A program made the position numbers and the translations under genes. The notes beneath the pieces were generated by a model. The model was not told the DNA's origin and made no database searches. It was given only the letters and a program-made list of their open reading frames with translations. Below are positions 47,391-64,000 of a DNA stretch of 64,000 nt, one piece after another; position 1 is the stretch's first letter, and each line of letters starts with the position of its first letter. The DNA is from Pseudomonadales bacterium (GTDB taxonomy: Bacteria; Pseudomonadota; Gammaproteobacteria; Pseudomonadales; Ketobacteraceae). The DNA is taken from positions 62,001 to 126,000 of the forward strand of contig NZXG01000061.1 in assembly GCA_002701845.1 (NCBI GenBank). Direction: 5' to 3'.

Positions 47391-48995
47391 CTAGTTCCCT
47401 TCCCGCCAGGCTTTGAACGCATCGTAGAGGCTTTTGTGGGACTTGGTTTCGTCTTTCTTCTCATCCTCGAACGACTTCAGTTCGCGCTCAAATTTCACAT
47501 CATCCACCTCCTGGAGGTAGCTTTCACTCTCATCCAACACCGAGCTGACGGTGTCGGAGGGGCTGTCCAGCCAGCTATTGAGCGTTTGTAAATCATCAGG
47601 GCTCAGAACTCCAGCGGCTTTCTTTAGCTTTAGTGTGTTAAGTATGTAATCGTACCTTGACGTGGCATACTCCTTCCGGGCCTGGAACACCTTGCGTTGG
47701 GCGGTGATGGCGTCGGTGAGGGTGCGGATGCCGTTCTCCCAGCCGTCGCGGATGGCGCGCAGGGAGCTGTTGTTGGATTTCACCGCCCGCAACCGGGCCT
47801 GCACCGTGGCCACGTTGGCTTTGACCTGGGTGTGGTACTGGCGGGTTTCCCGCAGGGCGTTGCGCCGGGCCAGTTCCAGATTATGCCGGGCCTCCTGCAG
47901 CCGGTGATCCGCCTCCCGCACCTGGGAGGAGGTAATGCCGCCGCTGTACAGAGGCACTGATACCCGCACGCCGATGGTCGTCCTATCAAATGAAGGGATA
48001 AAGCCGCCGCCCACTTCTCTTTTCTCATGCTGCAAAAACAGATCCGCGGTGGGGGCGTGGCCTGCTTTTTTCTCGCTCAGCTCTTTCTCCGCCGCGTCGG
48101 CGGCATACTGGGCGGCAATTAGCTGATAATTGGTGCGTTTGGCAAAGTCCTCCCATTCCGAGAGGGCATAGGGTTGGGGTGGTTCAATGGGAATATCCTG
48201 GGGCAGGGGATTGATCATATCGATATACACGCCGGTCAGCAGAGCGAGGTTTTCCTTCATGACCTCCAGCTGGCTTTCCGCCACAATCACCGCCGCCTTG
48301 GCCATATCGTGCTGGGCCTGCAGTTCGAACACATCGGTATCCCGCAACAGCCCCAGCTTGTACCGGTTCTTGACCCCGCTGAGCTGGGTGTGCAGGGTTT
48401 TTTCCTCGGCCCTCGCCAGCCGTAGTTCCTCCTGGGCCCGTAGTACGCCGAAATAGGCTTCCGCGGAGCGGATCATCAGCGCCTGCTGGGACAGGGCCAG
48501 CTGGGCCTTGGCGGCGTTGTTGGCGCTTTTGGCCCGCTTATAACGATTCCAGCGCTCCAGACGAAACAGGGGTTGTGCAACGGTAATATCATACAGAGTG
48601 GCAGTGTAATCTTCCGTCCGATCTACTTCGTTGGCAAAGCTTTCGTCACAAGCCTCCAGTAAAGGAAAAATGTCGCCCGCAGTGAGATCATCCAGATTTC
48701 CCGGAGCCTCGGTAAGCAAACAATTTATACCGCCATCAACGTCCCATACAGCAGTGCTTCCCTTGTAATACTGTTTTCCCCAACTACCGGTGAATTCGGC
48801 ATTGGGCAGCAGAGTGCCAAAAGCCTGCTCCACCTTTTCGCTGTCCGCCAGGTATTTCTGCTTCTGGGCCGCCCATTCCGGGTCGTTCTTGCGGGCAAGG
48901 GCAAAGATCTCTTCCAGATTTTCCGCGAAGAGGTTGGTGCTCAGCAGGCAGGTAACGATCAATGCCAGGCCGGATACAGCGCTTGTTATTCTCAT
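47391..48995 (-). CDS. TolC-family outer-membrane efflux protein
   Basis: 534 aa with signal peptide MRITSAVSGLALIVTCLLSTNLFA. It has two long alpha-helical repeats typical of the TolC tunnel (LARKNDPEWAAQKQKYLADSEKV; QQALMIRSAEAYFGVLRAQEELRLARAEEKTL; RNALRETRQYHTQVKANVATVQARL) and barrel-type strands between. The C-terminal tail beyond the second repeat is long and charged (FEDEKKDETKSHKSLYDAFKAW). No adaptor or inner-membrane pump gene is adjacent. Divergent from the NRPS with 569 bases between, so it may serve lipopeptide export; this is only inference. Confidence 0.87.
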   Translation of the reverse strand: MRITSAVSGLALIVTCLLSTNLFAENLEEIFALARKNDPEWAAQKQKYLADSEKVEQAFGTLLPNAEFTGSWGKQYYKGSTAVWDVDGGINCLLTEAPGNLDDLTAGDIFPLLEACDESFANEVDRTEDYTATLYDITVAQPLFRLERWNRYKRAKSANNAAKAQLALSQQALMIRSAEAYFGVLRAQEELRLARAEEKTLHTQLSGVKNRYKLGLLRDTDVFELQAQHDMAKAAVIVAESQLEVMKENLALLTGVYIDMINPLPQDIPIEPPQPYALSEWEDFAKRTNYQLIAAQYAADAAEKELSEKKAGHAPTADLFLQHEKREVGGGFIPSFDRTTIGVRVSVPLYSGGITSSQVREADHRLQEARHNLELARRNALRETRQYHTQVKANVATVQARLRAVKSNNSSLRAIRDGWENGIRTLTDAITAQRKVFQARKEYATSRYDYILNTLKLKKAAGVLSPDDLQTLNSWLDSPSDTVSSVLDESESYLQEVDDVKFERELKSFEDEKKDETKSHKSLYDAFKAWREGN

Positions 48996-49564: not shown

Positions 49565-52500
49565 ATGTCGCTAGAAGTTGGGCTTAACTCCTTCGATCCC
49601 GCCAACTGTTCCTCGTTGTTGGAGCTGCTGGAACGGCGTGCGGAATTGCATCCGGACAAGGTGGCGTTCACCTTTCTGCCCGATGGCGAGGATCAGGGTG
49701 TCCAGGTGACCTACGGCCAGTTGCGGGATCGTGCCCGCAGCAATGGCGCCCGCTTTGCCGCCGCCGGTGTCCCCGGCAGTCGCGCCCTGATGCTGTTTCC
49801 CTCCGGACTGGAGTTTATTTTCGCGTTTTTTGGCTGCCTGTATAGCGGCATTATTGCGGTGCCCGCGTATCCGCCGCGCCGTAATCAGAACCTGGGCCGC
49901 CTGCAGGCCATTATCGATGATTGTGATCCCGGGTTTGTATTGACCACGTCCCGGGTGCTCAGTGTCGCCGAGCCCCTGTTTGCCGAATCCGAACACCTCA
50001 AGCAGCTGCCTTTTGCTACCGTGGATCTCGATGATCCCCTGGCGCCAGAGTCCTGGCAGGACCCGGGGGTGGGTCCGGATACTCTGGCTTTCCTGCAATA
50101 CACTTCCGGTTCCACCGGGAATCCCAAGGGGGTTATGGTCAGCCATGGCAACCTGCTTTACAACGAGGCCATGATCACCTCCGCGTTCCGCAGCCACAGC
50201 GAGGATGTCTCTGTGAGCTGGTTGCCCATGTTCCACGATATGGGGCTGATCGGTACCACCCTCCAGCCCCTGTACGTGGGGGCAACGTCGGTGTTTATGT
50301 CGCCGGCGTCCTTCCTGCAGAAACCCCTGCGCTGGTTACAGGCCATTTCCGAATACGGCGGCACTGCCATCTGTGCTCCGAACTTTGCTTATGAGCTTTG
50401 CGTCAATCAGGTGACCGAGGAGCAGAAGGCGAGCCTGGATCTTTCCACGTTGCGTATTGCCTTGTCCGGGGCTGAGGCCGTGCGGGCCGAGACTCTGGAA
50501 CACTTTATCGATGCCTTTGCCGGCTGCGGCTTTCAGCGTCGGGCCTTTACCCCTACCTTCGGTCTGGCGGAGGCAACCCTGCTGGTGACCTGCGCCCGGG
50601 AGGAAAACCGGCCCCATTACCTGACGGTGGATGCCGCTGCCCTGGCGCAGAACCGGGTTGAAACCCTGGCGGACTCCCAGGCCCGGGGTCAACGCCTGGT
50701 CTCCAACGGCGTGGCGCCGCTGGATGCCAGCGTGATCATCGTGAACCCGGAATCCCGCGAGTCCGTGGCGGAAGGGCAGGTGGGGGAAATCTGGAGCGCC
50801 GGCGCCCATATCGCTCAGGGCTACTGGCAGAACCAGGCGGCTACGGAAGAGACCTTCCGCGCCTTTACCGCAGCGGGTGACGGCCCTTACATGCGCACCG
50901 GTGATCTGGGTTGTCTGCTGGACGGCGAACTCTATATCACCGGCCGGCGCAAGGATGTCATTATCATCCGTGGTCGCAACCATTACCCACAGGATATCGA
51001 ATTTACCGTGCAGCAGAGCCACGTGGCGCTGAAGGCCGACGCCGGAGCCGCGTTTGCGGTGGAGATCGATGGCGAGGAACGCCTGGTGGTGGTGCAGGAG
51101 GTGGAGCGCAAATACCGTATGCGGCTGGTGACGGAAGTGGTGAGCGCCGCCATCCGCCAGGCCGTGGCGGAGAATCATGAGCTGCAGGTGCATACCATTG
51201 TTTACCTGAAGCCGGGGGCCATCCTCAAGACTTCCAGTGGCAAGATCCAGCGCAGTGCCAATCGGCAGGCGTTTCTGGAGCAGGCCCTGGCGCCCATCGC
51301 CATCAGTTCACTGCAGGCGGAAGAACAGGGCGAAGAGGCGCAAAAGGCCATCGAATCCGCTCTGGCGCTGACCCGGGAACAGTGGCTGCAGTTACCGGCG
51401 GATCAGAAAGAGCCACGCCTGGTGCTCTATCTGAAAGCCGCCATTGCCAATGAAATCGGCGACAGCATTGATCGCATTAAAGACGATGTCAGCCTGATGG
51501 GCCTGGGTATCGATTCCCTGCAGATCACCCAGTTGTTTACCCGCCTGCGGGACCGGTTTGAAGTGAACCTGGAATTGCCGGCCCTGTTTGACGCCCGGGA
51601 TTTCCGGGCCCTGGCCGCCACCCTGGCGGATGCCCTGGAAGGCAATGCGCGGCCCGCGCTGCCGCCGCTGGAGGTGGTGGAACGCACTGAGCTGATGCCC
51701 ATGTCCTTCTCCCAGAAGCGCATGTGGTTTATGGACAAATTGCGGCCCGACAGCGTGGCGTACAACCTGCCTTTTGCCCTGAAAATCCAGGGGGCTCTGG
51801 ATATCAGTGCGGCGGAGCAGGCATTTCAGAGCATGATCAACCGGCACGAAGTGCTGCGCACTGTGTATGTGGAGCAGGACGGCCACGCCTATCAGCAGAT
51901 TCTGCCACCGGTGCACTGGCAGTTCAGTCGGGAGGATCTCACCTATCTGAAAGAACCGGCCCTGTCCAAGGCGGTGCGGGATCGCATTGATGCGGAGGCG
52001 CGCAAACCCTTTAACCTGGCCACCGGCCCGGTGATTCGCACCCACGTGCTGCGGCTGCCCGATCAGCAGGCGGATGCCTTGAAAGGACGCGCCGCGGAAC
52101 AGTATTTATTGCTGGTGACCATGCACCATATCGCCGCCGATGGCTTCTCCCTGAAAGTCATCACCGATGAGATCTCCCTGGCGTACGAAGCGGCGATTTC
52201 CGATGGCGCGAGCCGCCTGCCGAATCTGGAAATCCAATATGCCGACTATGCCCAATGGCAGAAAAACCTGTTTGACAGCGGCCTGTTGAACGACCAGCTG
52301 GATTATTGGCTGACGCATCTGCGGGATGTACCGGTACTGGATCTGCCCCTGGATCATCCCCGTCCCCCGGAACAAAGTTTCCAGGGCAGTAATTATTACT
52401 TCCAGATTCCCAAAGAGCAGGTGACGGCGCTAAAGCAACTGGCCCGCTCCCAGGGGGTAACCCTGTATATGGCGTTGCTGTCGGCGTTTAAAGTACTGTT

Positions 52501-55500
52501 GCATCAGTATACCCAGTGTGAAGATATCTGCGTCGGCACGCCCATCGCCAACCGCACCACACCGGAACTGGAAAAACTGATTGGTTTCTTCGTCAATACC
52601 CTGGCCCTGCGCACGGATCTGTCCGGCAACCCCAGCTTTGCCGAGCTGTTGCAGCGGGTGCGCAAAGTCACCCAGGGTGGTTTCGCCAACCAGGAGATGC
52701 CGTTTGAACGGGTGGTGGAGCACCTGGGTGTGCCCAGGGATCTGAGCTATTCGCCGGTGTTTCAGGTGATGTTTGTGTTGCAGAACAGCACCATCGATGA
52801 AGAATTCAACCTGGCCGGGGTCAACGTGGAAAGCCTGCACACGGCACCGGGCACCGCCAAATTTGATATTACCCTGGAGCTGTCGGAAGAGTCCGGCGTA
52901 CTCTATGGTGATCTGGAATATGCCACGGACCTGTTCGAGGAAGCCACCATCGAACAGATGATGGCCCACTACCAGCAGGTGATCCGCAACGCTATCGAAC
53001 AGCCGGAGCAGGCCGTGGGCAACCTCAGTATGCTAACCGCCAACGACCAGCGGCAGTTACTGCAGGAATTCAATGCCACGGATGCCGATTTGCCGTTGAA
53101 TGATTGTATTCACAGTCTGTTTGAGCGCCAGGTACAGCAGGCCGGCGATTCGGTGGCGCTGGTCTGTGGTGAACAGCGCCTGACCTACGCGGAACTCAAT
53201 GCCCGCAGTAACCGGCTGGCCCATTATCTGCTGGGCCGGGGCGTGACGCCGGAGACCCTGGTGGGCGTCTGTCTGGGACGGGAAGCCGATCTGGTGGTGG
53301 CGCTGATGGCCATCCTCAAGGCCGGTGGCGCCTATGTGCCCATCGATCCCAATTACCCGGCGGATCGGGTGGCCTATATGCTGACGGATGCCAGTGCCCC
53401 ACTGGTGATTTCCCACAGCTCCCTGGCGCCCATGCTGCCGCCGGCCACCGCGGCGTTCAAGCCGGTGATGCTGGATCAGCTGGCGGGCGAGTTGGCACAA
53501 CAACCGGATTCTGATCCGGCGCTGGAGGCCCGTGCCGATCACTTGGCTTATGTGATCTACACGTCCGGCTCCACCGGAAAACCCAAAGGGGTCATGATCA
53601 GTCACGGCAATGCCACTGCGTTGATTCATTGGGCCCATAGCCAATATTCCAGCGCGGATCTGAACGGTGTGCTGGCGGCCACCTCGATCTGTTTCGACCT
53701 GTCTGTGTTTGAATTGTTTGTAACGCTGGCTGCCGGCGGCAAGGTGATTCTGGCGGAGAATGTGCTGGCGCTGCCACAATTGCCGGCCCGGGACGAGGTG
53801 GTGCTGATCAACACCGTGCCCTCGGCCATTGCCACTTTGTTGCGGGAGCAGGCTATCCCCGCCAATGTCAAAGTAATCAATCTGGCGGGGGAGGCGCTGC
53901 CCGCCAGCCTGGTGGACAGCCTCTACGCCGATACCGCGGTGGAGCGGGTTTACGATCTGTATGGTCCATCTGAGGACACCACCTATTCCACCTGCGCTCT
54001 GCGTCGACCTGGCCTGCCAGCCACTATAGGCCGGCCTATCAGCAATACCCGGGCCTACGTGTTGAACCAGCACGGTACTTTGGTGGCGCCGGGGCTGGCG
54101 GGAGAACTGTACCTGGCCGGTACCGGCGTGACCCGGGGCTATCGCAACCGGGAAGCGCTGACCGCGGAGAAATTCCTGCCCAACCCCTTCGAACATGACG
54201 CAAAGTTCGCCCGTATGTATCGTACTGGAGATCTGGTCCGGTACCAGACGGAAGGTCAGCTGCAGTACCTGGGTCGGATTGATCATCAGGTGAAAGTGCG
54301 GGGCTTCCGTATTGAGCTGGGGGAGATTCAGGCGGTGATCAACAGCGTGGACAGTGTCCGCGACAGCCTGGTACTGACCCGGGAGGATGCCGCCGGCGCC
54401 AGGTGTCTGGTGGCTTACCTGGAGGCTCCCGCTGCGGACAAGGAGCAGGTGATCAGCGCGGTGCGCGGCGTTATTCGCGCTCAGCTACCGGAATACATGC
54501 TGCCCTCGGCTTTTGTGCTGCTGCCGGCATTTCCCCTGACACCCAATGGCAAGGTGGACCGGGCCGCGCTGCCCGAGCCGTCGGTGACGGATCTGCTGGG
54601 GGACCAGTTTGTGGCGCCGCGGGATGATAATGAGCGGCGCATGGCGGCCATCTGGTGCGACGTATTGAAACTGGATCAGGTGGGCGTTAGCAATAACTTT
54701 TTCGAACTGGGTGGGCATTCCCTGCTGGCCACCCAGGCGGTGTCCCGCATTCGGGATGAGTTCGGAGTGGAACTGCCGGTTAAACTGTTGTTCACCAATC
54801 CCACCATCGAGACGTTGTGCCAGCAGCTGGAGCAAGCGGATCAGTTATCTGATCTGATGCCGCCGCCGGTGCAACGCATCGATCGGGATGGCGATCTGCC
54901 CCTGTCGTTTGCCCAGATGCGATTGTGGTTTCTCAATCAACTGGAATCCGGTAAATCCGAATACAACATCAGCACGTCCTATAATATGCCGGCCGCCATC
55001 CGGCTTACGGGCGAGTTGAATGTAAACGCCCTGCGCAAGGCCTTTCAGGTGCTGGTGGAGCGACACGAAGCACTGCGAACGTCTTTTCTGATCGATGACG
55101 GCCGCGCTACCCAGGTGATCCGCGAGCCCAGTGACTGGTTCATGGACGTGCGTGATCTGCGTCATCTGGATGGCGAAGAGCGGGCAGCGGAAGTGATTCG
55201 GCTGGCGGAAGACGAAGCCACGCGCTCCTTTGATCTGGTGTTGGGTTCCCACACTAAGGCCCGGCGTATTCGCCTGATGCGTACCCGGTTGTTGCAGACG
55301 GCTGATCAGGATTACGTTTTACTGCTGACCATGCACCACATCATATCCGATGGTTGGTCCCTGGGCATCCTGATCGACGAAGTGGGCGAACTGTACCGCG
55401 CCATGGTGGGTGGTGAAGAGCCGCAATTGCCCGAGCTCCACATCCAGTACGCGGATTACGCCGCCTGGCAGCGACAGTGGATGGATGGCCCCGTATTCGA

Positions 55501-58201
55501 CCATCAACTGAACTACTGGCGCCAGCACCTGGATGGGGTGCCGGTACTGGAACTGCCCACGGACCGGCCCCGGCCGCCGTTGATGACTTTCAACGGCAGT
55601 TTTGAACCGGTGCGAATCGATCACGAGCTGACGCAGAAGCTCAATGCCTTAAGTCGTGAACAGGGGGTTACTCTGTTCATGACCCTGATTAGCGCCTTCT
55701 ACACCCTGTTGCATCGTTACACCGGTCAGTCGGACATCTGCGTCGGTACTCCAGTGGCCAATCGGGCCCGGCCGGAGTTCGAAAAACTGATCGGCTGCTT
55801 TGTTAACAGTCTCGCCCTGCGGGTACAGCTGGAGGACGACCCCAGCTTCTTGCAGCTGCTGTCACGGGTGCAGGACGTAACCCTGGCGGGTTACAGTCAC
55901 CAGGATCTGCCCTTTGAACGACTGGTGGATGCTTTGGGTGTGGCGCGGGATAAGAGTCACTCGCCCCTGTTCCAGGTGATGTTCACTTTACAGAACGCTT
56001 CCAATACGCTGGACGTGCAGATGCCTGGCGTGGCGGTGGAGATGCTGCCTTCGGTGGCCAGGACCGCGAAATTCGATCTGACCCTCAATCTGGAGGAAGG
56101 GCCCAAAGGCCTGGAGGGCATGATTGAGTTCAACACCGATCTGTTCGACCGGGAAACCGTGCACCGAATGGTGGGCCACCTGGAGCAGATTCTGGAAACC
56201 GTGGGGGAACATCCCCACGTCAGGATCTCGGAAATCGAACTGCTCAGCGCCCATGAGCGACAGCTGGTATTGCACGAGTGGAACCATCAGCCGGAGGCCT
56301 ATGCCTGTGACGACACCATTCACCAGCGCTTCGAGCGGCAGGTAGCGGCGACGCCGGAACGCGTCGCGTTGACCCTGGGCTCCAGCAGCCTCAGTTATCA
56401 GGAATTGAACAGCCGCGCCAATCGCCTGGCTCATTTGCTGCGCCAGGAAGGGGTGGTGGCCAATCAGCTGGTGGGTATCTGCCTGCAACGGTCTCTGGAC
56501 ATGGTGGTGGCGATTCTGGCGGTGTTAAAGGCCGGTGGCGCCTATGTGCCTTTGGATCCTGCCAACCCCCAAGAGCGCATCCGCTTTATCATGGAGGATG
56601 CCGGGTTGGAACTGCTGATTACCGAGCAGACGGTACAGGATACCCTGCCCACAGAGCAGTCGGTAAAAACACTGGTGTTGGAAACCCTGGCCGCCGCTCT
56701 TGGCCAACAGCCGGTGGCCAATCCGCCCACCGTGGTCGGACCCGATGATCGCGCTTATGTGATCTATACCTCCGGCACCACCGGCAAGCCCAAGGGGGTG
56801 CTGATTCCCCATTCCAATGTGATCCGGCTGTTTACCGCCACAGATCAGTGGTTCGGTTTTGACCAGGAAGATGTGTGGACACTGTTTCACTCTTTCGCCT
56901 TTGATTTCTCGGTGTGGGAGCTCTGGGGCGCGTTGTTCTATGGTGGCCGGGTGATCATTGTGCCCACCGCCGTGGCCAAGTCCACGGAGGATTTTTACCA
57001 GCTGGTGTGCGATGAAGGGGTGACCATTCTTAATCAGACCCCCTCAGCGTTCACCCAGTTTATCCGCATGGATGAGTTTGCCCGTGACGGGCTGGCCCGC
57101 CAAAACCGGCCGCTGGCCCTGCGCTGCGTTATCTTTGGCGGTGAGGCGCTGGATTTTGCCGCCCTGCAAAGCTGGAATGAGCACCATGGACTGGAGCATC
57201 CGCAGCTGATCAACATGTACGGCATCACGGAAACCACGGTCCATGTCACTTATCACCGGATCAGTGAGCAGGATCTGGAGCAGCGTCAGAGCCTGATCGG
57301 CCGACCCATTCCCGACCTGGATCTGTACATACTGGACCAACATATGAATCCGGTGCCCATTGGGGTGCCCGGGGAGCTTTATGTGGGGGGCCAGGGTCTG
57401 GCGCACGGTTACCTGAACCGGGACGAACTGACCAGGCAAAGGTTTATTGAAAGCCCCCTGAGCGCCGGTGGCCAGCGCCAGGGTTTCCGTTATCAATGCC
57501 TGTATAAAACCGGCGACATCGGCCGCTATCTTGCCAATGGCGTAGTGGAATACCTGGGACGGGCGGACGATCAGGTTAAAATCCGCGGCTACCGGATCGA
57601 ACTGGGAGAAATTGAATCCGCCCTCAATCAATATGCGCCGGTGCGGGATGCCGTGGTATTGGCGCGGGAGGATGTGCCCGGTGATCGTCGGCTGGTGGCC
57701 TATGTGCTGGGGGATGACAGCCTGCAAAGCGGCGAGCTGAAATCCTTCCTCGGGCAGATGTTGCCCGAATATATGGTTCCCAAAGCCTACGTCGTGCTGA
57801 ACCAGTTTCCCCTGACAGCCAACGGCAAAGTGGACAAACGGGCCTTACCGGCGCCGGATGACACGGCAGTGGCCAAGCAGGAATACGTGGCGCCGCGCAA
57901 CGATACCGAAGAGGCACTGTGTGAGATCTGGAAAGAAGTATTGGGGCTGGATCGGGTTGGCGTAACCGACAATTTCTTTGATCTTGGCGGCCATTCGCTG
58001 CTGGCCACACAAGTGGTATCCAGGGTGCGAGAGCATTTCAACGTGGAACTGGCGCTCAGCGCGTTGTTCGAAGAGCCCACCATCGAAAATGTGGCGTTGC
58101 ATCTGCTACAGGCGGAGATCGCCTCCGCCGATGATCTGGAGATGTCGGAACTATTGGCGGAAATCGAGGGCTTGTCGGAAGAGGATCTGCGGAATATCTA
58201 G
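49565..58201 (+). CDS. NRPS 1: FAAL-PCP-C-A(Ala)-PCP-C-A(Thr)-PCP
   Basis: 2878 aa. Fatty-acyl-AMP ligase, residues about 1-590 (FLQYTSGSTGNPKGVMVSH, PAYPPRRNQN). PCP1 has Ser651 in GIDSLQ. C1 has HH854-855 and DG859-860 (HHIAADG). A1 covers about 1190-1670; pocket residues read by eye are D-L-F-N-N-A-L-T-Y-K, remembered as an Ala code. PCP2 has Ser1719 in GGHSLLA. C2 has HH1924-1925 (HHIISDGWS). A2 covers about 2260-2760; pocket D-F-W-N-I-G-M-V-H-K, the classical Thr code. PCP3 has Ser2811. The acidic tail (EMSELLAEIEGLSEEDLRNI) looks like a docking element. It activates a fatty acid and builds acyl-Ala-Thr on the enzyme. There is no thioesterase. AGGA is nine bases before the ATG. Confidence 0.94.
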   Translation: MSLEVGLNSFDPANCSSLLELLERRAELHPDKVAFTFLPDGEDQGVQVTYGQLRDRARSNGARFAAAGVPGSRALMLFPSGLEFIFAFFGCLYSGIIAVPAYPPRRNQNLGRLQAIIDDCDPGFVLTTSRVLSVAEPLFAESEHLKQLPFATVDLDDPLAPESWQDPGVGPDTLAFLQYTSGSTGNPKGVMVSHGNLLYNEAMITSAFRSHSEDVSVSWLPMFHDMGLIGTTLQPLYVGATSVFMSPASFLQKPLRWLQAISEYGGTAICAPNFAYELCVNQVTEEQKASLDLSTLRIALSGAEAVRAETLEHFIDAFAGCGFQRRAFTPTFGLAEATLLVTCAREENRPHYLTVDAAALAQNRVETLADSQARGQRLVSNGVAPLDASVIIVNPESRESVAEGQVGEIWSAGAHIAQGYWQNQAATEETFRAFTAAGDGPYMRTGDLGCLLDGELYITGRRKDVIIIRGRNHYPQDIEFTVQQSHVALKADAGAAFAVEIDGEERLVVVQEVERKYRMRLVTEVVSAAIRQAVAENHELQVHTIVYLKPGAILKTSSGKIQRSANRQAFLEQALAPIAISSLQAEEQGEEAQKAIESALALTREQWLQLPADQKEPRLVLYLKAAIANEIGDSIDRIKDDVSLMGLGIDSLQITQLFTRLRDRFEVNLELPALFDARDFRALAATLADALEGNARPALPPLEVVERTELMPMSFSQKRMWFMDKLRPDSVAYNLPFALKIQGALDISAAEQAFQSMINRHEVLRTVYVEQDGHAYQQILPPVHWQFSREDLTYLKEPALSKAVRDRIDAEARKPFNLATGPVIRTHVLRLPDQQADALKGRAAEQYLLLVTMHHIAADGFSLKVITDEISLAYEAAISDGASRLPNLEIQYADYAQWQKNLFDSGLLNDQLDYWLTHLRDVPVLDLPLDHPRPPEQSFQGSNYYFQIPKEQVTALKQLARSQGVTLYMALLSAFKVLLHQYTQCEDICVGTPIANRTTPELEKLIGFFVNTLALRTDLSGNPSFAELLQRVRKVTQGGFANQEMPFERVVEHLGVPRDLSYSPVFQVMFVLQNSTIDEEFNLAGVNVESLHTAPGTAKFDITLELSEESGVLYGDLEYATDLFEEATIEQMMAHYQQVIRNAIEQPEQAVGNLSMLTANDQRQLLQEFNATDADLPLNDCIHSLFERQVQQAGDSVALVCGEQRLTYAELNARSNRLAHYLLGRGVTPETLVGVCLGREADLVVALMAILKAGGAYVPIDPNYPADRVAYMLTDASAPLVISHSSLAPMLPPATAAFKPVMLDQLAGELAQQPDSDPALEARADHLAYVIYTSGSTGKPKGVMISHGNATALIHWAHSQYSSADLNGVLAATSICFDLSVFELFVTLAAGGKVILAENVLALPQLPARDEVVLINTVPSAIATLLREQAIPANVKVINLAGEALPASLVDSLYADTAVERVYDLYGPSEDTTYSTCALRRPGLPATIGRPISNTRAYVLNQHGTLVAPGLAGELYLAGTGVTRGYRNREALTAEKFLPNPFEHDAKFARMYRTGDLVRYQTEGQLQYLGRIDHQVKVRGFRIELGEIQAVINSVDSVRDSLVLTREDAAGARCLVAYLEAPAADKEQVISAVRGVIRAQLPEYMLPSAFVLLPAFPLTPNGKVDRAALPEPSVTDLLGDQFVAPRDDNERRMAAIWCDVLKLDQVGVSNNFFELGGHSLLATQAVSRIRDEFGVELPVKLLFTNPTIETLCQQLEQADQLSDLMPPPVQRIDRDGDLPLSFAQMRLWFLNQLESGKSEYNISTSYNMPAAIRLTGELNVNALRKAFQVLVERHEALRTSFLIDDGRATQVIREPSDWFMDVRDLRHLDGEERAAEVIRLAEDEATRSFDLVLGSHTKARRIRLMRTRLLQTADQDYVLLLTMHHIISDGWSLGILIDEVGELYRAMVGGEEPQLPELHIQYADYAAWQRQWMDGPVFDHQLNYWRQHLDGVPVLELPTDRPRPPLMTFNGSFEPVRIDHELTQKLNALSREQGVTLFMTLISAFYTLLHRYTGQSDICVGTPVANRARPEFEKLIGCFVNSLALRVQLEDDPSFLQLLSRVQDVTLAGYSHQDLPFERLVDALGVARDKSHSPLFQVMFTLQNASNTLDVQMPGVAVEMLPSVARTAKFDLTLNLEEGPKGLEGMIEFNTDLFDRETVHRMVGHLEQILETVGEHPHVRISEIELLSAHERQLVLHEWNHQPEAYACDDTIHQRFERQVAATPERVALTLGSSSLSYQELNSRANRLAHLLRQEGVVANQLVGICLQRSLDMVVAILAVLKAGGAYVPLDPANPQERIRFIMEDAGLELLITEQTVQDTLPTEQSVKTLVLETLAAALGQQPVANPPTVVGPDDRAYVIYTSGTTGKPKGVLIPHSNVIRLFTATDQWFGFDQEDVWTLFHSFAFDFSVWELWGALFYGGRVIIVPTAVAKSTEDFYQLVCDEGVTILNQTPSAFTQFIRMDEFARDGLARQNRPLALRCVIFGGEALDFAALQSWNEHHGLEHPQLINMYGITETTVHVTYHRISEQDLEQRQSLIGRPIPDLDLYILDQHMNPVPIGVPGELYVGGQGLAHGYLNRDELTRQRFIESPLSAGGQRQGFRYQCLYKTGDIGRYLANGVVEYLGRADDQVKIRGYRIELGEIESALNQYAPVRDAVVLAREDVPGDRRLVAYVLGDDSLQSGELKSFLGQMLPEYMVPKAYVVLNQFPLTANGKVDKRALPAPDDTAVAKQEYVAPRNDTEEALCEIWKEVLGLDRVGVTDNFFDLGGHSLLATQVVSRVREHFNVELALSALFEEPTIENVALHLLQAEIASADDLEMSELLAEIEGLSEEDLRNI

Positions 58202-58294
58202 CATCGACCCGGACACTTCGCCATCCGCCGGCTACTACAATTTTCAAACAGCATCCGTTCGTCATGCGATTAATCGGAATGGGCAAATCTCTGA

Positions 58295-61200
58295 ATGACT
58301 GATAAGAAGTTACTGAGCCGCTTGGCCAGTTTGAGTCCTGAGCAAAGAGAAGCGTTGCTGAAGCAACTGAAAAAGAAGAAATCACAGGGCGAGCAGACTG
58401 GCAAAGATCAAATCACGGCCTACAAGCGCGACAGCAACCGCGTGCTTATGTCCTACGCCCAGCAACGGCTCTGGTTTATCGATCAGCTGCAGTCCGGCAG
58501 TGCCAGCTATAATATCTCTGCCGCGTTGCGTTTGCGGGGTGCGCTGGACGTTGAAGCCCTGCGACTCAGCTTCGAGGAGATCATTCAGCGTCATGAAGTG
58601 CTGCGCACCACCTTTGTCACCGAGGAGGGCCAGGGTCGTCAGGTCATCAATCATCTGCAGCGCTGGGAATTGCCCACCATCAGTCTCGAGCCGCTGGATG
58701 CCGAAGAGCAGAATGAAGTGGTGCGGGACCGCTTCCGGGGTGACGCCCACACCTCATTTGATCTGATCAATGGGCCCTTGCTGCGCACCCGGCTGATCCG
58801 TCTCAGCAGTACTGAGCATGTGATTATTGTCACCATGCACCACATTATTTCCGACGGTTGGTCCATGGGTGTGTTTATCCAGGAAATAGCGCTGCTTTAC
58901 GACGCCTTCCGCCAGGATAAGCCTTCACCGCTGCAGGATCTTAAAATCCAATACGCTGATTATTCACTGTGGCAGCGGGAGTGGCTCTCCGGAGACCGTC
59001 TGGAACGTCAGCTGAGTTATTGGAAAACCCGTCTTGATGGGGTGCCGGTGTTGGAGTTGCCCACGGATTTTCCCCGCCCGCCGGTACAGAGTTACGAAGG
59101 CAGTAATCTGCATTTTGGGCTGGATGCGGAGCTGACCGCGCAGTTGCAGCAACTGGCCAAGCAGCAGGGTGTCACCCTGTTTATGGTGTTGTTCGCTGCG
59201 CTCCAGGTGTTGCTGCACCGGTACAGTGCCCAGGACGATATCTGTGTGGGTACTCCCATTGCCGGTCGGGTCCGACCGGAAGTGGAAAAGCTCATTGGGT
59301 GTTTCGTTAATACCCTGGCCATCCGCAGTGACCTGGAGGGCAATCCCAGCTTCATTGCCCTGTTGAAGCAGGTGCAGCAAAATCTCACCGGGGCCTACGA
59401 TCATCAGGATATCCCCTTTGAGCGCCTGGTGGACGAACTGGGCGTGGCCCGGGAGATGAGTCATACCCCGCTGTTTCAGGTGATGTTCGTGTTACAGAAT
59501 GCCACCGACAGCAATCTGTCGCTGCCGGGGTTGGATATCGAGTTGCTACCCGCGGAATCCAACACCTCCAAGTTTGATATTACCATCAATATGCGGGAGG
59601 AGTCCGGTCGCCTGCGGGGGGACTTTGAATACTGTACCGCTCTGTACAGTCATCAGACTATCGAACGCATGGTCGCTCATTTCCAGCGTCTGCTGCGGCA
59701 ATTGGCGGGTAACCCTCAGCAGGGGATTGATGAGGTGGATTATCTGTCGGCCAGCGAAACCCGCCTGCTGTTGGAGGACTGGGCCGGTGCCCGTCCGGCC
59801 TATGAACGGGATGGGGATATACTCAGCGTCTGGCAGGCGATGTTGTCCCGTCACGGCAGCCGTCCCGCGGTGGGGTTTGCCGAGCAGGCTCTGACGTATG
59901 CCCAGTTGGACGCCATGGCCAACCATATTGCCCATGGGCTGCGGGAGCATGGCGTCCAGCCCGGGCAGCGGGTGGGGCTTTGCGCCGAACGTAGTCCCGA
60001 AGTCATTGCTGCAATGCTGGGCATATTAAAAGCCGGTGGTGCTTATGTACCACTGGATCCGGCCTATCCGCAGGACCGGCTTGCCTATATGTTGCAGGAC
60101 GCGGCGCTGAACCTGGTGCTGTGTCATGACCAGCTACGGGATAAGTTGCCGGCCGAGCCGGCTCACCTGTTGTCCCTGAACGGGTTTGCCGGCTTGACCT
60201 CGCCCATCGCCGCGCTCCCAATTGAGCCCGGCCCGTCGGCAGCGGCCTATGTGATGTATACCTCTGGTTCAACCGGCAAGCCCAAGGGCATTGAAGTCTG
60301 TCATCGCAATGTGGTGCGGTTGGTGCGTAATACCAACTTTATGGACATGAATGCCAGCCTGTGCTTCCTGCAATACGCACCCATTTCATTCGATGCGGCC
60401 ACTCTGGAAATCTGGGCGCCGCTGTTGAACGGCGGTAAAGTGATGGTGGCGCCTCCGGGCCAGTTGACTCCGGAGGAGATCGGCGTGGTGATAGAGCAAG
60501 GGCAGGTGAATACCGCCTGGTTCACCGCTGCGCTGTTTCATGTGATCGCGGAGTACCACCTGGACCTTTTGCGCCCACTGCGCCAGTTGCTGGCGGGGGG
60601 GGATGTGCTGGGGCCGAAGCTGGTGCGCAAGGTGCTGGAGGAAATACCGGGCATCCGACTGATCAATGGTTATGGTCCCACTGAAAACACCACCTTTACC
60701 TGCTGTTACCCCATCACTCAGGTCAGTGAAGTGCGCCACACCGTGCCCATCGGTCGGCCCATTGCCAATACCACGGTGTATATACTCGATCGTCAGCGTA
60801 AGCCGGTACCCGTGGGCATTCCGGGGGAACTATACACTGGCGGCGATGGGGTGGCCCACGGCTATCTTAACCGCGATGAACTCACTGCAGAAGTATTCCT
60901 GCCCGATCCCTTCAGTACCGAACCGGGGGCACGCCTGTACAAGACCGGTGACCTGGTGCGCTATCTGGATGACGGTAATATTGAATACCTGGGGCGGGTG
61001 GATCAGCAGGTAAAAATCCGCGGTTTCCGCATTGAGCTGAGCGAAGTGGAAACCGCCCTGGGCCGGATCAACACCGTGCGCGAAGTGGCGGTGCTGGCGC
61101 GGGAGGATATTCCCGGGGTGAAGCGTCTGGTGGCCTATTTTGTTCCGGTGGCCGGCGCCAATCCCACCACCGCGGAACTGCGGGTGGAGCTGAAACAATC

Positions 61201-64000
61201 CCTGCCGGAATACATGATTCCCTCGGCCTTCGTGGCAATGGAAACCCTGCCCGTCACCGCCAACGGCAAACTGGATCGCCGTGCGCTACCCAAGCCACAA
61301 CTGGAGGCGGATGTGGCGCTTAAACGGTTGCCGCCGCGCACGGAAAAAGAAATCATTCTGGTGGATATCTGGAAGCAGGTCCTCAATCTGGACGACGTGG
61401 GTATTCGCGATAATTTCTTCGAGATGGGGGGCGACTCCATACTCAGCATTCAGATTATCAGCCGGGCCAAACTGGCGGGCTTGCATCTCACCACCAAACA
61501 GATTTTCGAGAACCAGACCATTGAAGAGCTGGCGCTGGTGGCCAGCGAAGTGGAGTCGCCGATTCTGGCAGAGCAGGGCGCGGTTACCGGTGATGTTCTG
61601 CTGTCCCCCATTCAACACTGGTTCTTCGATCACGATTTTGAAGCTGAACAGCATTGGAATCAGTCCGTATTACTGGACATAAAACCCGGACGGTTGATTA
61701 GCGAACCGCAACTGCAAACCGCCTTAGCCGCGCTGATATCCCAACATGATGCATTGCGGTCCCGATTTGTTCGGGCGCACGAATCCGTGCGGCAGTATCT
61801 GGCGGATCCAGAGCCGGCGCATCAGCATTATCTGTTGGACACCGTGGTAATGGACTCCTACGACCCGGCCAGCGATGCCGGACTGCTGACGGAACAGTGC
61901 AACCGTATTCAAGCCAGCCTTAATCTGCAGCAGGGCCCACTGGTGGCGGCCGGGCTGTTCCAGTTGGGGAAAGGTGGTTACAAGCTACTGCTGGTGCTGC
62001 ACCACTTGGTGGTGGATGGAGTATCCTGGCGCGTGCTGATTGAAGATTTCAACAAAGCCCTGGAACAGGCTGCCAACGGTGGGCCGGTGGCTCTGGGCTA
62101 TAAAACCACGGCCTATCAGCAATGGGTGGCAGCGTTGCAGGAAAGCGTGGAATTGGGGCATTTCAACGCTGAGATTGATTACTGGGAGCAAGTGATCGAA
62201 CGGGACAAGCCGGTGATTCCCCTGGACAACGCCGCAGTACCCCATCAGGTGGCAGACAGCGTTATTCATAGCGAACGTCTGTCGGCGTCACTGACCCAAT
62301 CATTGTTGCGCGATGTACATCATGCGTTTCGTACTGAGATCAATGATCTGCTGTTGTCCGCTCTGGCCCGGGTGATTTCGGACTGGAGTGGCAATGCGGA
62401 GATATACCTGGAACTGGAGGGCCATGGCCGGGAAAGCTTCAGTGAAAAAATCGACTTGAGCCGCACTGTGGGCTGGTTCACTTCGGTGTACCCGGTACGC
62501 CTGAAATATGAAAACGGCCAGTCGTTGCAGGACAACCTGAAATCGGTCAAGGAGCAGCTGCGGCGTATTCCCAATAAAGGCTTTGGTTATGGCGCTCTGC
62601 GTTACCTGGGGCAGCCGCGCCAAAACCGTTTATTGAGGCAGGCCCCGCGGGCGGATATCGTCTTCAACTATTTAGGTCAATTTGATGCCCTGCTGGAAAA
62701 CAACCCCTGGTTCCAGCTGGCGGCGGAGCATCGCGGTCAGGAACACAGCTCCGGCAGCGTGGATCCCCACCCAATCAGTATTAACAGCCATATTGCCGGT
62801 GATAGTCTGCAGGTGGACTGGATTTTTTCCCAGCGGCAGCTGCGTCTGGATACAGTGGCCAAGCTGGCCCAGCAGTTTATGGCGGCACTGGAGCAGTTGA
62901 TTGCCCACTGCGTGCAGCCCAATGTATTTGGTTACACACCATCTGACTTCCCCCTGGCGGGGCTGGATCAACCCCAGCTGGACCGCCTGGTGGGTACGCA
63001 ACCCAATATTGAATCGGTTTATCCCCTGTCCCCCATGCAGGAGGGGATGTTGTTCCACAGCCTGTTTGATAATGATGACGGGGTTTATTTCGAGCAGCTT
63101 AGCGTTGAAGTGTTGGGGGGCGTTAACCGGGATACCCTGAAACAGGCCTGGCTGTTGGTGGTGCGGCGGCATCCGGCGTTGCGCAGTGCGTTTTTCTGGC
63201 AGGACATAGATCGGCCCCTGCAGATTGTCTACCGGGACATTGATATGGAGATCAGTGAACTGGACTGGCGCCACCTGGGGGAGAGCCAGGTGCAGGACCG
63301 GTTGGATACCTGGCTGGCCAAAGACCGCCAGCGCGGCTTTGATTTTGAACGGCCCGGTCTGATGCGCCTGACCTGGGTGGATCTGCCCGGAAACCGCGCC
63401 CGCCTGATATGGAGCTTCCACCATATCGTACTGGATGGCTGGTCGCTGCCATTGGTTATGGGCGAGGTATTCCAGACCTATGGTCTGCTGACCAAGGGTG
63501 AAGAGCCAATTCTGCCACAGGCCGGTTGCTACGAGGATTTTATTTCCTATCTGGAACAGGTGGACAAGGGCGATGCGCTGCAGTTCTGGAAATTGTATCT
63601 GGCCGGGTTCGAGGCGGCCACCGCGCTGCCCAATCAGCGTGCGGCGGTGGAGTCTGCGGATAAGCTGTTCCTGGAAAACGAGTTTGTGCTCAATCTGGAT
63701 TTTACCGGCCGTCTGCAACAGTTTGCCCGGGAACAGCATGTCACCCTGAATACGGTGGTGCAGGCGGCCTGGGGCGTGCTGCTGGCCCGCTACAGCGGCG
63801 ACCGGGATGTGGTATTCGGCACCACCGTTTCCGGCCGGCCCGCGGATTTGCCCAACGTGGAAAATATCGTGGGGCTTTTCATCAATACCTTGCCACTGCG
63901 AATTCGTTTGGATCGGGATACCACGATTTTGCCGTTACTGAAATCCATGCAGGATGAACAACTGGATTTGCGGCGGTTTGAATTCACACCTCTGGTGGAC
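58295..64000 (+). CDS. NRPS 2: C-A(Val)-PCP-E-C..., 3' truncated by window
   Basis: Not in the ORF track because it has no stop in the window; 1902 codons are open from ATG 58295 to the end. The N-terminus LLSRLASLSPEQREALLKQLKKKK is a basic linker, a plausible partner for the acidic tail of NRPS1. C1 has HH182-183 (HHIISDGWS). A covers about 520-1010 with pocket D-A-L-W-L-G-G-T-F-K, a Val-type code. PCP has Ser1048 in GGDSILS, the GGDS form seen before epimerases. The E domain has HH1236-1237 (HHLVVDGVSW), with FNYLGQFD later. A second C has YPLSPMQEGMLFHS and HH1709-1710 (HHIVLDGWS), and should accept the D-residue. More modules follow outside. Confidence 0.93.
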   Translation, partial: MTDKKLLSRLASLSPEQREALLKQLKKKKSQGEQTGKDQITAYKRDSNRVLMSYAQQRLWFIDQLQSGSASYNISAALRLRGALDVEALRLSFEEIIQRHEVLRTTFVTEEGQGRQVINHLQRWELPTISLEPLDAEEQNEVVRDRFRGDAHTSFDLINGPLLRTRLIRLSSTEHVIIVTMHHIISDGWSMGVFIQEIALLYDAFRQDKPSPLQDLKIQYADYSLWQREWLSGDRLERQLSYWKTRLDGVPVLELPTDFPRPPVQSYEGSNLHFGLDAELTAQLQQLAKQQGVTLFMVLFAALQVLLHRYSAQDDICVGTPIAGRVRPEVEKLIGCFVNTLAIRSDLEGNPSFIALLKQVQQNLTGAYDHQDIPFERLVDELGVAREMSHTPLFQVMFVLQNATDSNLSLPGLDIELLPAESNTSKFDITINMREESGRLRGDFEYCTALYSHQTIERMVAHFQRLLRQLAGNPQQGIDEVDYLSASETRLLLEDWAGARPAYERDGDILSVWQAMLSRHGSRPAVGFAEQALTYAQLDAMANHIAHGLREHGVQPGQRVGLCAERSPEVIAAMLGILKAGGAYVPLDPAYPQDRLAYMLQDAALNLVLCHDQLRDKLPAEPAHLLSLNGFAGLTSPIAALPIEPGPSAAAYVMYTSGSTGKPKGIEVCHRNVVRLVRNTNFMDMNASLCFLQYAPISFDAATLEIWAPLLNGGKVMVAPPGQLTPEEIGVVIEQGQVNTAWFTAALFHVIAEYHLDLLRPLRQLLAGGDVLGPKLVRKVLEEIPGIRLINGYGPTENTTFTCCYPITQVSEVRHTVPIGRPIANTTVYILDRQRKPVPVGIPGELYTGGDGVAHGYLNRDELTAEVFLPDPFSTEPGARLYKTGDLVRYLDDGNIEYLGRVDQQVKIRGFRIELSEVETALGRINTVREVAVLAREDIPGVKRLVAYFVPVAGANPTTAELRVELKQSLPEYMIPSAFVAMETLPVTANGKLDRRALPKPQLEADVALKRLPPRTEKEIILVDIWKQVLNLDDVGIRDNFFEMGGDSILSIQIISRAKLAGLHLTTKQIFENQTIEELALVASEVESPILAEQGAVTGDVLLSPIQHWFFDHDFEAEQHWNQSVLLDIKPGRLISEPQLQTALAALISQHDALRSRFVRAHESVRQYLADPEPAHQHYLLDTVVMDSYDPASDAGLLTEQCNRIQASLNLQQGPLVAAGLFQLGKGGYKLLLVLHHLVVDGVSWRVLIEDFNKALEQAANGGPVALGYKTTAYQQWVAALQESVELGHFNAEIDYWEQVIERDKPVIPLDNAAVPHQVADSVIHSERLSASLTQSLLRDVHHAFRTEINDLLLSALARVISDWSGNAEIYLELEGHGRESFSEKIDLSRTVGWFTSVYPVRLKYENGQSLQDNLKSVKEQLRRIPNKGFGYGALRYLGQPRQNRLLRQAPRADIVFNYLGQFDALLENNPWFQLAAEHRGQEHSSGSVDPHPISINSHIAGDSLQVDWIFSQRQLRLDTVAKLAQQFMAALEQLIAHCVQPNVFGYTPSDFPLAGLDQPQLDRLVGTQPNIESVYPLSPMQEGMLFHSLFDNDDGVYFEQLSVEVLGGVNRDTLKQAWLLVVRRHPALRSAFFWQDIDRPLQIVYRDIDMEISELDWRHLGESQVQDRLDTWLAKDRQRGFDFERPGLMRLTWVDLPGNRARLIWSFHHIVLDGWSLPLVMGEVFQTYGLLTKGEEPILPQAGCYEDFISYLEQVDKGDALQFWKLYLAGFEAATALPNQRAAVESADKLFLENEFVLNLDFTGRLQQFAREQHVTLNTVVQAAWGVLLARYSGDRDVVFGTTVSGRPADLPNVENIVGLFINTLPLRIRLDRDTTILPLLKSMQDEQLDLRRFEFTPLVD

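Follow-up and report, generated by a model that had tools for sequence, protein, structure and literature searches.

What does a lipopeptide assembly line produce when it opens with a fatty acyl-AMP ligase (FAAL) and runs off the end of the analysed DNA, and how is the rest of it built? The window, that is the whole 64-kb stretch that was analysed, corresponds to C24:62001-126000 of genome G000 and lies inside a contig of 307,735 bases. Since the contig extends past the window, the unfinished part of the line could be read.

Extent and domain order of the assembly line

The original prediction had placed FAAL-T-C-A-T-C-A-T in the first NRPS gene and C-A-T-E-C in the second, and this arrangement was borne out by Pfam and phmmer. 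The main domains of the window gave Pfam E-values below 1e-80, which rules out chance. The first domain, proposed to be a FAAL start, proved to be a true fatty acyl-AMP ligase: the PDB structures that it matched include 3kxw/3lnv and FadD32. The epimerase expected after the valine module was also found, as an E domain with both motifs in place followed by a DCL-type C domain (Table 1). As had been stated, the line is unfinished at the window edge, where gene 2 is interrupted at position 64000.

The complete line occupies C24 111565-171632 and consists of five NRPS proteins (19,296 aa in sum) with 14 modules and a single terminal thioesterase (TE). An N-terminal FAAL is followed by a carrier and a C domain, and collinear C-A-T modules lead to the TE; TubC_N docking domains stand at the start of g3, g5, and g6. 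In modules 6, 7, 8, 11, and 14 an extra condensation-fold domain, here called Cx, lies between C and A and gives the order C-Cx-A-T. The domain order, codes, E domains, docking domains, TE and conservation of the line are read directly from sequence, and the locus is almost certainly a 14-module, five-protein, FAAL-initiated lipopeptide assembly line. A strict search for HHxxxDG had marked C8 and E2 as inactive; this was dropped, since alignment gave HHIISDA and HHLVVDV with the catalytic residues intact.

Table 1. Features of the window (positions of the 64-kb stretch) and the five NRPS genes of the line (positions on contig C24).
Feature	Description	Position	Strand	Evidence
TolC-type gene	Outer-membrane efflux protein, divergent neighbour	47391..48995	-	Pfam OEP; synteny
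NRPS gene 1	FAAL-T-C-A(Ala)-T-C-A(Thr)-T, 2878 aa	49565..58201	+	
FAAL	Fatty acyl-AMP ligase, putative lipid loading in cis	49619..51334	+	PDB matches; Pfam DIP2-like AMP domain
T after FAAL	Carrier domain	51440..51634	+	
C1	LCL type, HHIAADG	51686..53068	+	
A1	DLFNNALTYK (Ala)	53114..54568	+	
T, module 1	Carrier domain	54629..54838	+	
C2	LCL type, HHIISDG	54884..56272	+	
A2	DFWNIGMVHK (Thr)	56324..57844	+	
T, module 2	Carrier domain	57905..58114	+	
NRPS gene 2	First 1902 of 4175 aa, C-A(Val)-T-E-C...; then A-T-E-DCL-A-T outside window	58295..64000	+	
C3	LCL type, HHIISDG	58430..59779	+	
A3	DALWLGGTFK (Val)	59831..61285	+	
T, module 3	Carrier domain	61343..61549	+	
E1	Epimerisation domain, HHLVVDG and EGHGRE intact	61595..62884	+	
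C4	DCL type, HHIVLDG; end outside window, position 64264	62915..64000	+	
g1	FAAL-T-C-A-T-C-A-T	C24 111565-120201		
g2	C-A-T-E-C-A-T-E-C-A-T, 4175 aa	C24 120295-132822		
g3	TubC_N-C-Cx-A-T-C-Cx-A-T	C24 132819-141986		
g5	TubC_N-C-Cx-A-T-C-A-T-C-A-T	C24 143997-155099		
g6	TubC_N-C-Cx-A-T-C-A-T-C-A-T-C-Cx-A-T-TE	C24 155166-171632		

Adenylation codes and the predicted peptide

The codes were read by alignment to GrsA, whose reference sequence gave the code expected for it, DAWTIAAICK. On this alignment, A1-A3 had exactly the three codes proposed earlier. The codes DAFFLGATFK (A4) and DAFFLGVTFK (A5) we take to specify branched aliphatic residues, since they are similar to codes for Val and Ile. 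The A10 code, DPRHGGFQVK, starts with DPRH, which resembles the D-Glu code of McyE; its residue is left as X.

Seven modules carry homoserine (Hse) codes of the DLKN type: DLKNVGSDVK in A6 and A8, DLKNIGSDVK in A7, DLKNFGSDVK in A11, and DLKNFGSDIK in A9, A12, and A13. DLKNVGSDVK has been found in Hse/Hsl domains (PMC12283262), and DLKNFGSDVK is the Hse code of the cyanobacterial laxaphycin/scytocyclamide lines, which nevertheless involve other residues, belong to another phylum and, in the available text, come without mention of C-Cx-A-T (PMC7524897). In family f1, among modules 6-9 and 11-13, the Hse codes after Cx mostly end in DVK and those without Cx in DIK, which may hint at slightly different substrates or at co-evolution.

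The A14 code, DIWEMTADDK, differs in a single residue from DIWELTADDK, the code of the third A domain in a PvdL-like, FAAL-led protein of P. mendocina (L068) whose gene adjoins a Dab aminotransferase gene. That PvdL-like module presumably takes Dab, as known from pyoverdine. On account of this near-identity and of the adjoining aminotransferase gene, we read A14 as Dab; in the line itself, an EctB-type Dab aminotransferase gene overlaps g6 by 4 bases. PvdL, which initiates pyoverdine synthesis, thus shares the FAAL start, the closely similar code and the nearby aminotransferase with our line, but it serves a siderophore product, has three amino-acid modules and is devoid of Cx.

The Hse and Dab assignments are probably correct. 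In both E domains the catalytic His and EGHGRE are retained, and a DCL domain follows each, which predicts the D form for residues 3 and 4. With residues, stereochemistry and protein order predicted in this way, the peptide should be acyl-Ala-Thr-D-Val-D-(aliphatic)-(aliphatic)-Hse6-Hse7-Hse8-Hse9-X10-Hse11-Hse12-Hse13-Dab14. A free fatty acid would be adenylated and loaded in cis by the FAAL, the chain would grow over the 14 modules, and the TE of the last protein would release the peptide. The acyl-Ala-Thr-D-Val start put forward at first is supported, but it covers only three of the 14 residues; what is more unusual about the line, namely the seven Hse modules, the Dab module, and the five C-Cx-A-T modules, lies outside the window. 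No product matching the predicted peptide was found in the literature searched, and the line is large and apparently uncharacterised.

The Cx domain and its possible role

Cx matches Pfam Condensation, and its AlphaFold model (pLDDT 93.7) is a confident condensation fold. The five Cx of the line share 22-34% identity with one another; against its remaining C and E domains the figure is 13-22%. In a FastTree analysis of 433 C-type domains Cx was monophyletic (support 1.0), and so it was in an IQ-TREE analysis of 107 domains (UFBoot 100), with a long stem. It fell outside the LCL, DCL, and E clades in both trees and, with IQ-TREE, apart from interface-like domains. The catalytic His is present in 98% of Cx (lost in 1/53) and the Asp in 100%; there are also Cx-specific residues not found in LCL, DCL, or E domains. 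The Foldseek matches listed were NRPS condensation-superfamily domains of many subtypes (rhizomide, AmbE, and others in PDB) at 13-21% identity; their scores were alike, so the fold does not separate subtypes. Judged by its sequence, Cx is a deep and distinct subtype of condensation domain that belongs to none of the groups used for comparison (LCL, DCL, E, and interface-like).

With a threshold of E <= 1e-40, Cx was detected in 28 of 392 genomes of the order, half of them (14) outside the family. Three further genomes turned up among 369 drawn from the class; two of these share one family, and in one of the two, NRPS ORFs are about 12,000 aa long. Among 299 genomes drawn from the phylum, Cx was found in none other than this genome, and a plasmid search returned just remotely related C domains, the best matches listed being 23-28% identical. 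The relatives include a BD1-7 clade bacterium (L016) and MAGs labelled Gammaproteobacteria (L090, L091). In G507, a genome of 2.6 Mb, contigs C30, C34, and C15 carry NRPS ORFs of about 12,100, 12,000, and 6,900 aa, each with Cx. At L165:18499-19998 (G035), an ORF open at the locus end begins with Cx, with no C before it, directly after an MFS exporter gene.

The codes that follow Cx were Hse, Ser, Thr, Dab, and a Lys-like DAESIGTVVK (our reading), plus one without assignment. When all modules were counted, Hse, Ser, Thr, Dab, or Lys-like codes occurred in 86/87 modules after Cx versus 56/140 without it, a count weakened by orthologues and by co-inheritance of Cx with A, which could inflate it; the figure with one observation per family and residue type, 14/15 versus 11/49 (p = 1e-6), is the safer one. 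Modules 9, 12, and 13 carry Hse codes without Cx, so Cx is not needed for Hse use.

As the catalytic residues are retained and nearly all partners have a nucleophilic side chain, we prefer acylation of the side chain as the role of Cx. The ordinary C preceding Cx would make the backbone peptide bond, and Cx would transfer an acyl group, with acyl-CoA or a carrier as candidate donor, to the side-chain O or N of Hse or Dab in the same module; the product would be a lipopeptide acylated on multiple side chains. That Cx is an unrecognised C subtype which acylates side-chain hydroxyls or amines, giving lipopeptides with several acylated Hse and a modified Dab, is a tentative proposal, possible but still doubtful. 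The broader statement, which joins a family-ancestral 14-module line with side-chain acylation by Cx as its conjectured chemistry, may hold, at a little under an even chance. If predictive of side-chain modification, a distinct subtype such as Cx would alter product prediction for many NRPS clusters and could serve to decorate peptides.

The main rival to side-chain acylation is internal initiation as in icosalide, for which a two-lipid mechanism has reportedly been described. Cx would then be an internal starter C that puts a hydroxyacyl group onto the alpha-amine of the residue, and the preceding C would join the upstream peptide to the acyl hydroxyl, so that several lipids would come to lie in the backbone. 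The order C-Cx-A-T fits the one C-C-A-PCP module, at Ser, of the Burkholderia icosalide synthetase, although that enzyme, compared by its description, has four modules and no FAAL is listed in the available text (PMC9581180). The trees differ on this point: FastTree placed Cx beside two starter-position C domains, whereas IQ-TREE placed it basal to LCL plus DCL and apart from starters. Five separate lipid insertions would be needed, and since this chemistry requires no nucleophilic side chain, it leaves the side-chain association unexplained. We consider this reading unlikely.

Cx could instead be a non- or weakly catalytic recruiter of a tailoring enzyme, like the interface domains of beta-hydroxyaspartate siderophore NRPSs, which are likewise extra C-fold domains directly upstream of A; Cx does sit between C and A. 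In two Halomonas loci (L027, L037) a C-fold domain precedes an Asp A domain directly, and we take these to be interface domains. However, the examples so assigned belong to Asp modules, lack HHxxxDG and form a separate clade, whereas Cx keeps its His and Asp and does not group with them. No hydroxylase was present among the genes examined around the cluster; none of the genome's three TauD genes shares a contig with it, and two lie close to a second FAAL gene on C34. A recruiting role seems rather improbable.

A different modification of the residue, by dehydration as in the CmodAA domain of AmbE (7r9x) or by lactone or heterocycle formation, is quite improbable. Loss of water is chemically conceivable for Ser, Thr, and Hse, and AmbE is a known case of a condensation-fold domain with such activity; dehydration is impossible for Dab and Lys, though, and the AmbE domain, represented by a fragment only, grouped with DCL domains and away from Cx. 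That Cx is a functionless relic of duplicated modules is very improbable, since a few copies have degenerate motifs (Cx6 of G006) but the catalytic residues are near-invariant and the same five positions are retained across the genera of the family.

Conservation of the line and neighbouring genes

The FAAL gene was present in 14 of the 15 family genomes searched, the exception being 54% complete. Five other species of the genus have the same 14-module order, and members of three further genera follow it as far as their contigs go, with some residues exchanged, for instance for Gly at position 9 or 13; protein identity to the relatives falls from about 80% to about 50% or less. The 14-module line was apparently already present in the ancestor of this bacterial family. 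Specialised-metabolite lines usually differ between strains, so family-wide retention is unusual, and the keeping of all 14 modules suggests a basic role, for example in surface activity or defence. In g5 of G006 (L113-L114), and in L164 and L167, there are modules apparently without an A domain (C-T or Cx-T), which are possibly degraded or loaded in trans.

The original prediction had also suggested looking past position 64000 for further modules, a thioesterase, transporters, and MbtH. A search of the whole genome found no MbtH gene; the others were all there, the release and export functions comprising the terminal TE, a stand-alone TEII, and MFS and RND exporters. The genes 3' of g6 encode the EctB-type aminotransferase, a divergent stand-alone condensation-fold protein, the MFS exporter, the TEII, and the RND pump with its fusion protein. 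Upstream and divergent are TolC and FadL homologues; a TolC-type gene adjoins the cluster in relatives too, and its product is likely the export partner of the line. The stand-alone condensation-fold protein (L007:12955-14220, minus strand; motif HHAVSDG) is conserved in the genus beside the cluster and is a possible acyltransferase candidate. It grouped with Cx, but on a very long branch, and its kinship with Cx was discounted.

Between g3 and g5 (C24:142091-143872, L009), inside the NRPS operon, lies a gene for a membrane-anchored 7TMR-DISM GGDEF diguanylate cyclase, which may link production to c-di-GMP. This 593-aa ORF had been considered as an ABC transporter, a reading rejected in favour of the 7TMR-DISM GGDEF protein. 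The gene is found at the same place across the genus and in G009, and G006 and G008 have other genes there. In G006 the slot is filled by a gene with type I restriction R-subunit domains (ResIII, EcoEI_R_C; L113:16602-19061), so that its NRPS operon is interrupted. Elsewhere in genome G000, the second FAAL/NRPS region (C34:33787-54605), with two TauD hydroxylase genes close by, might be a beta-hydroxyaspartate siderophore cluster.
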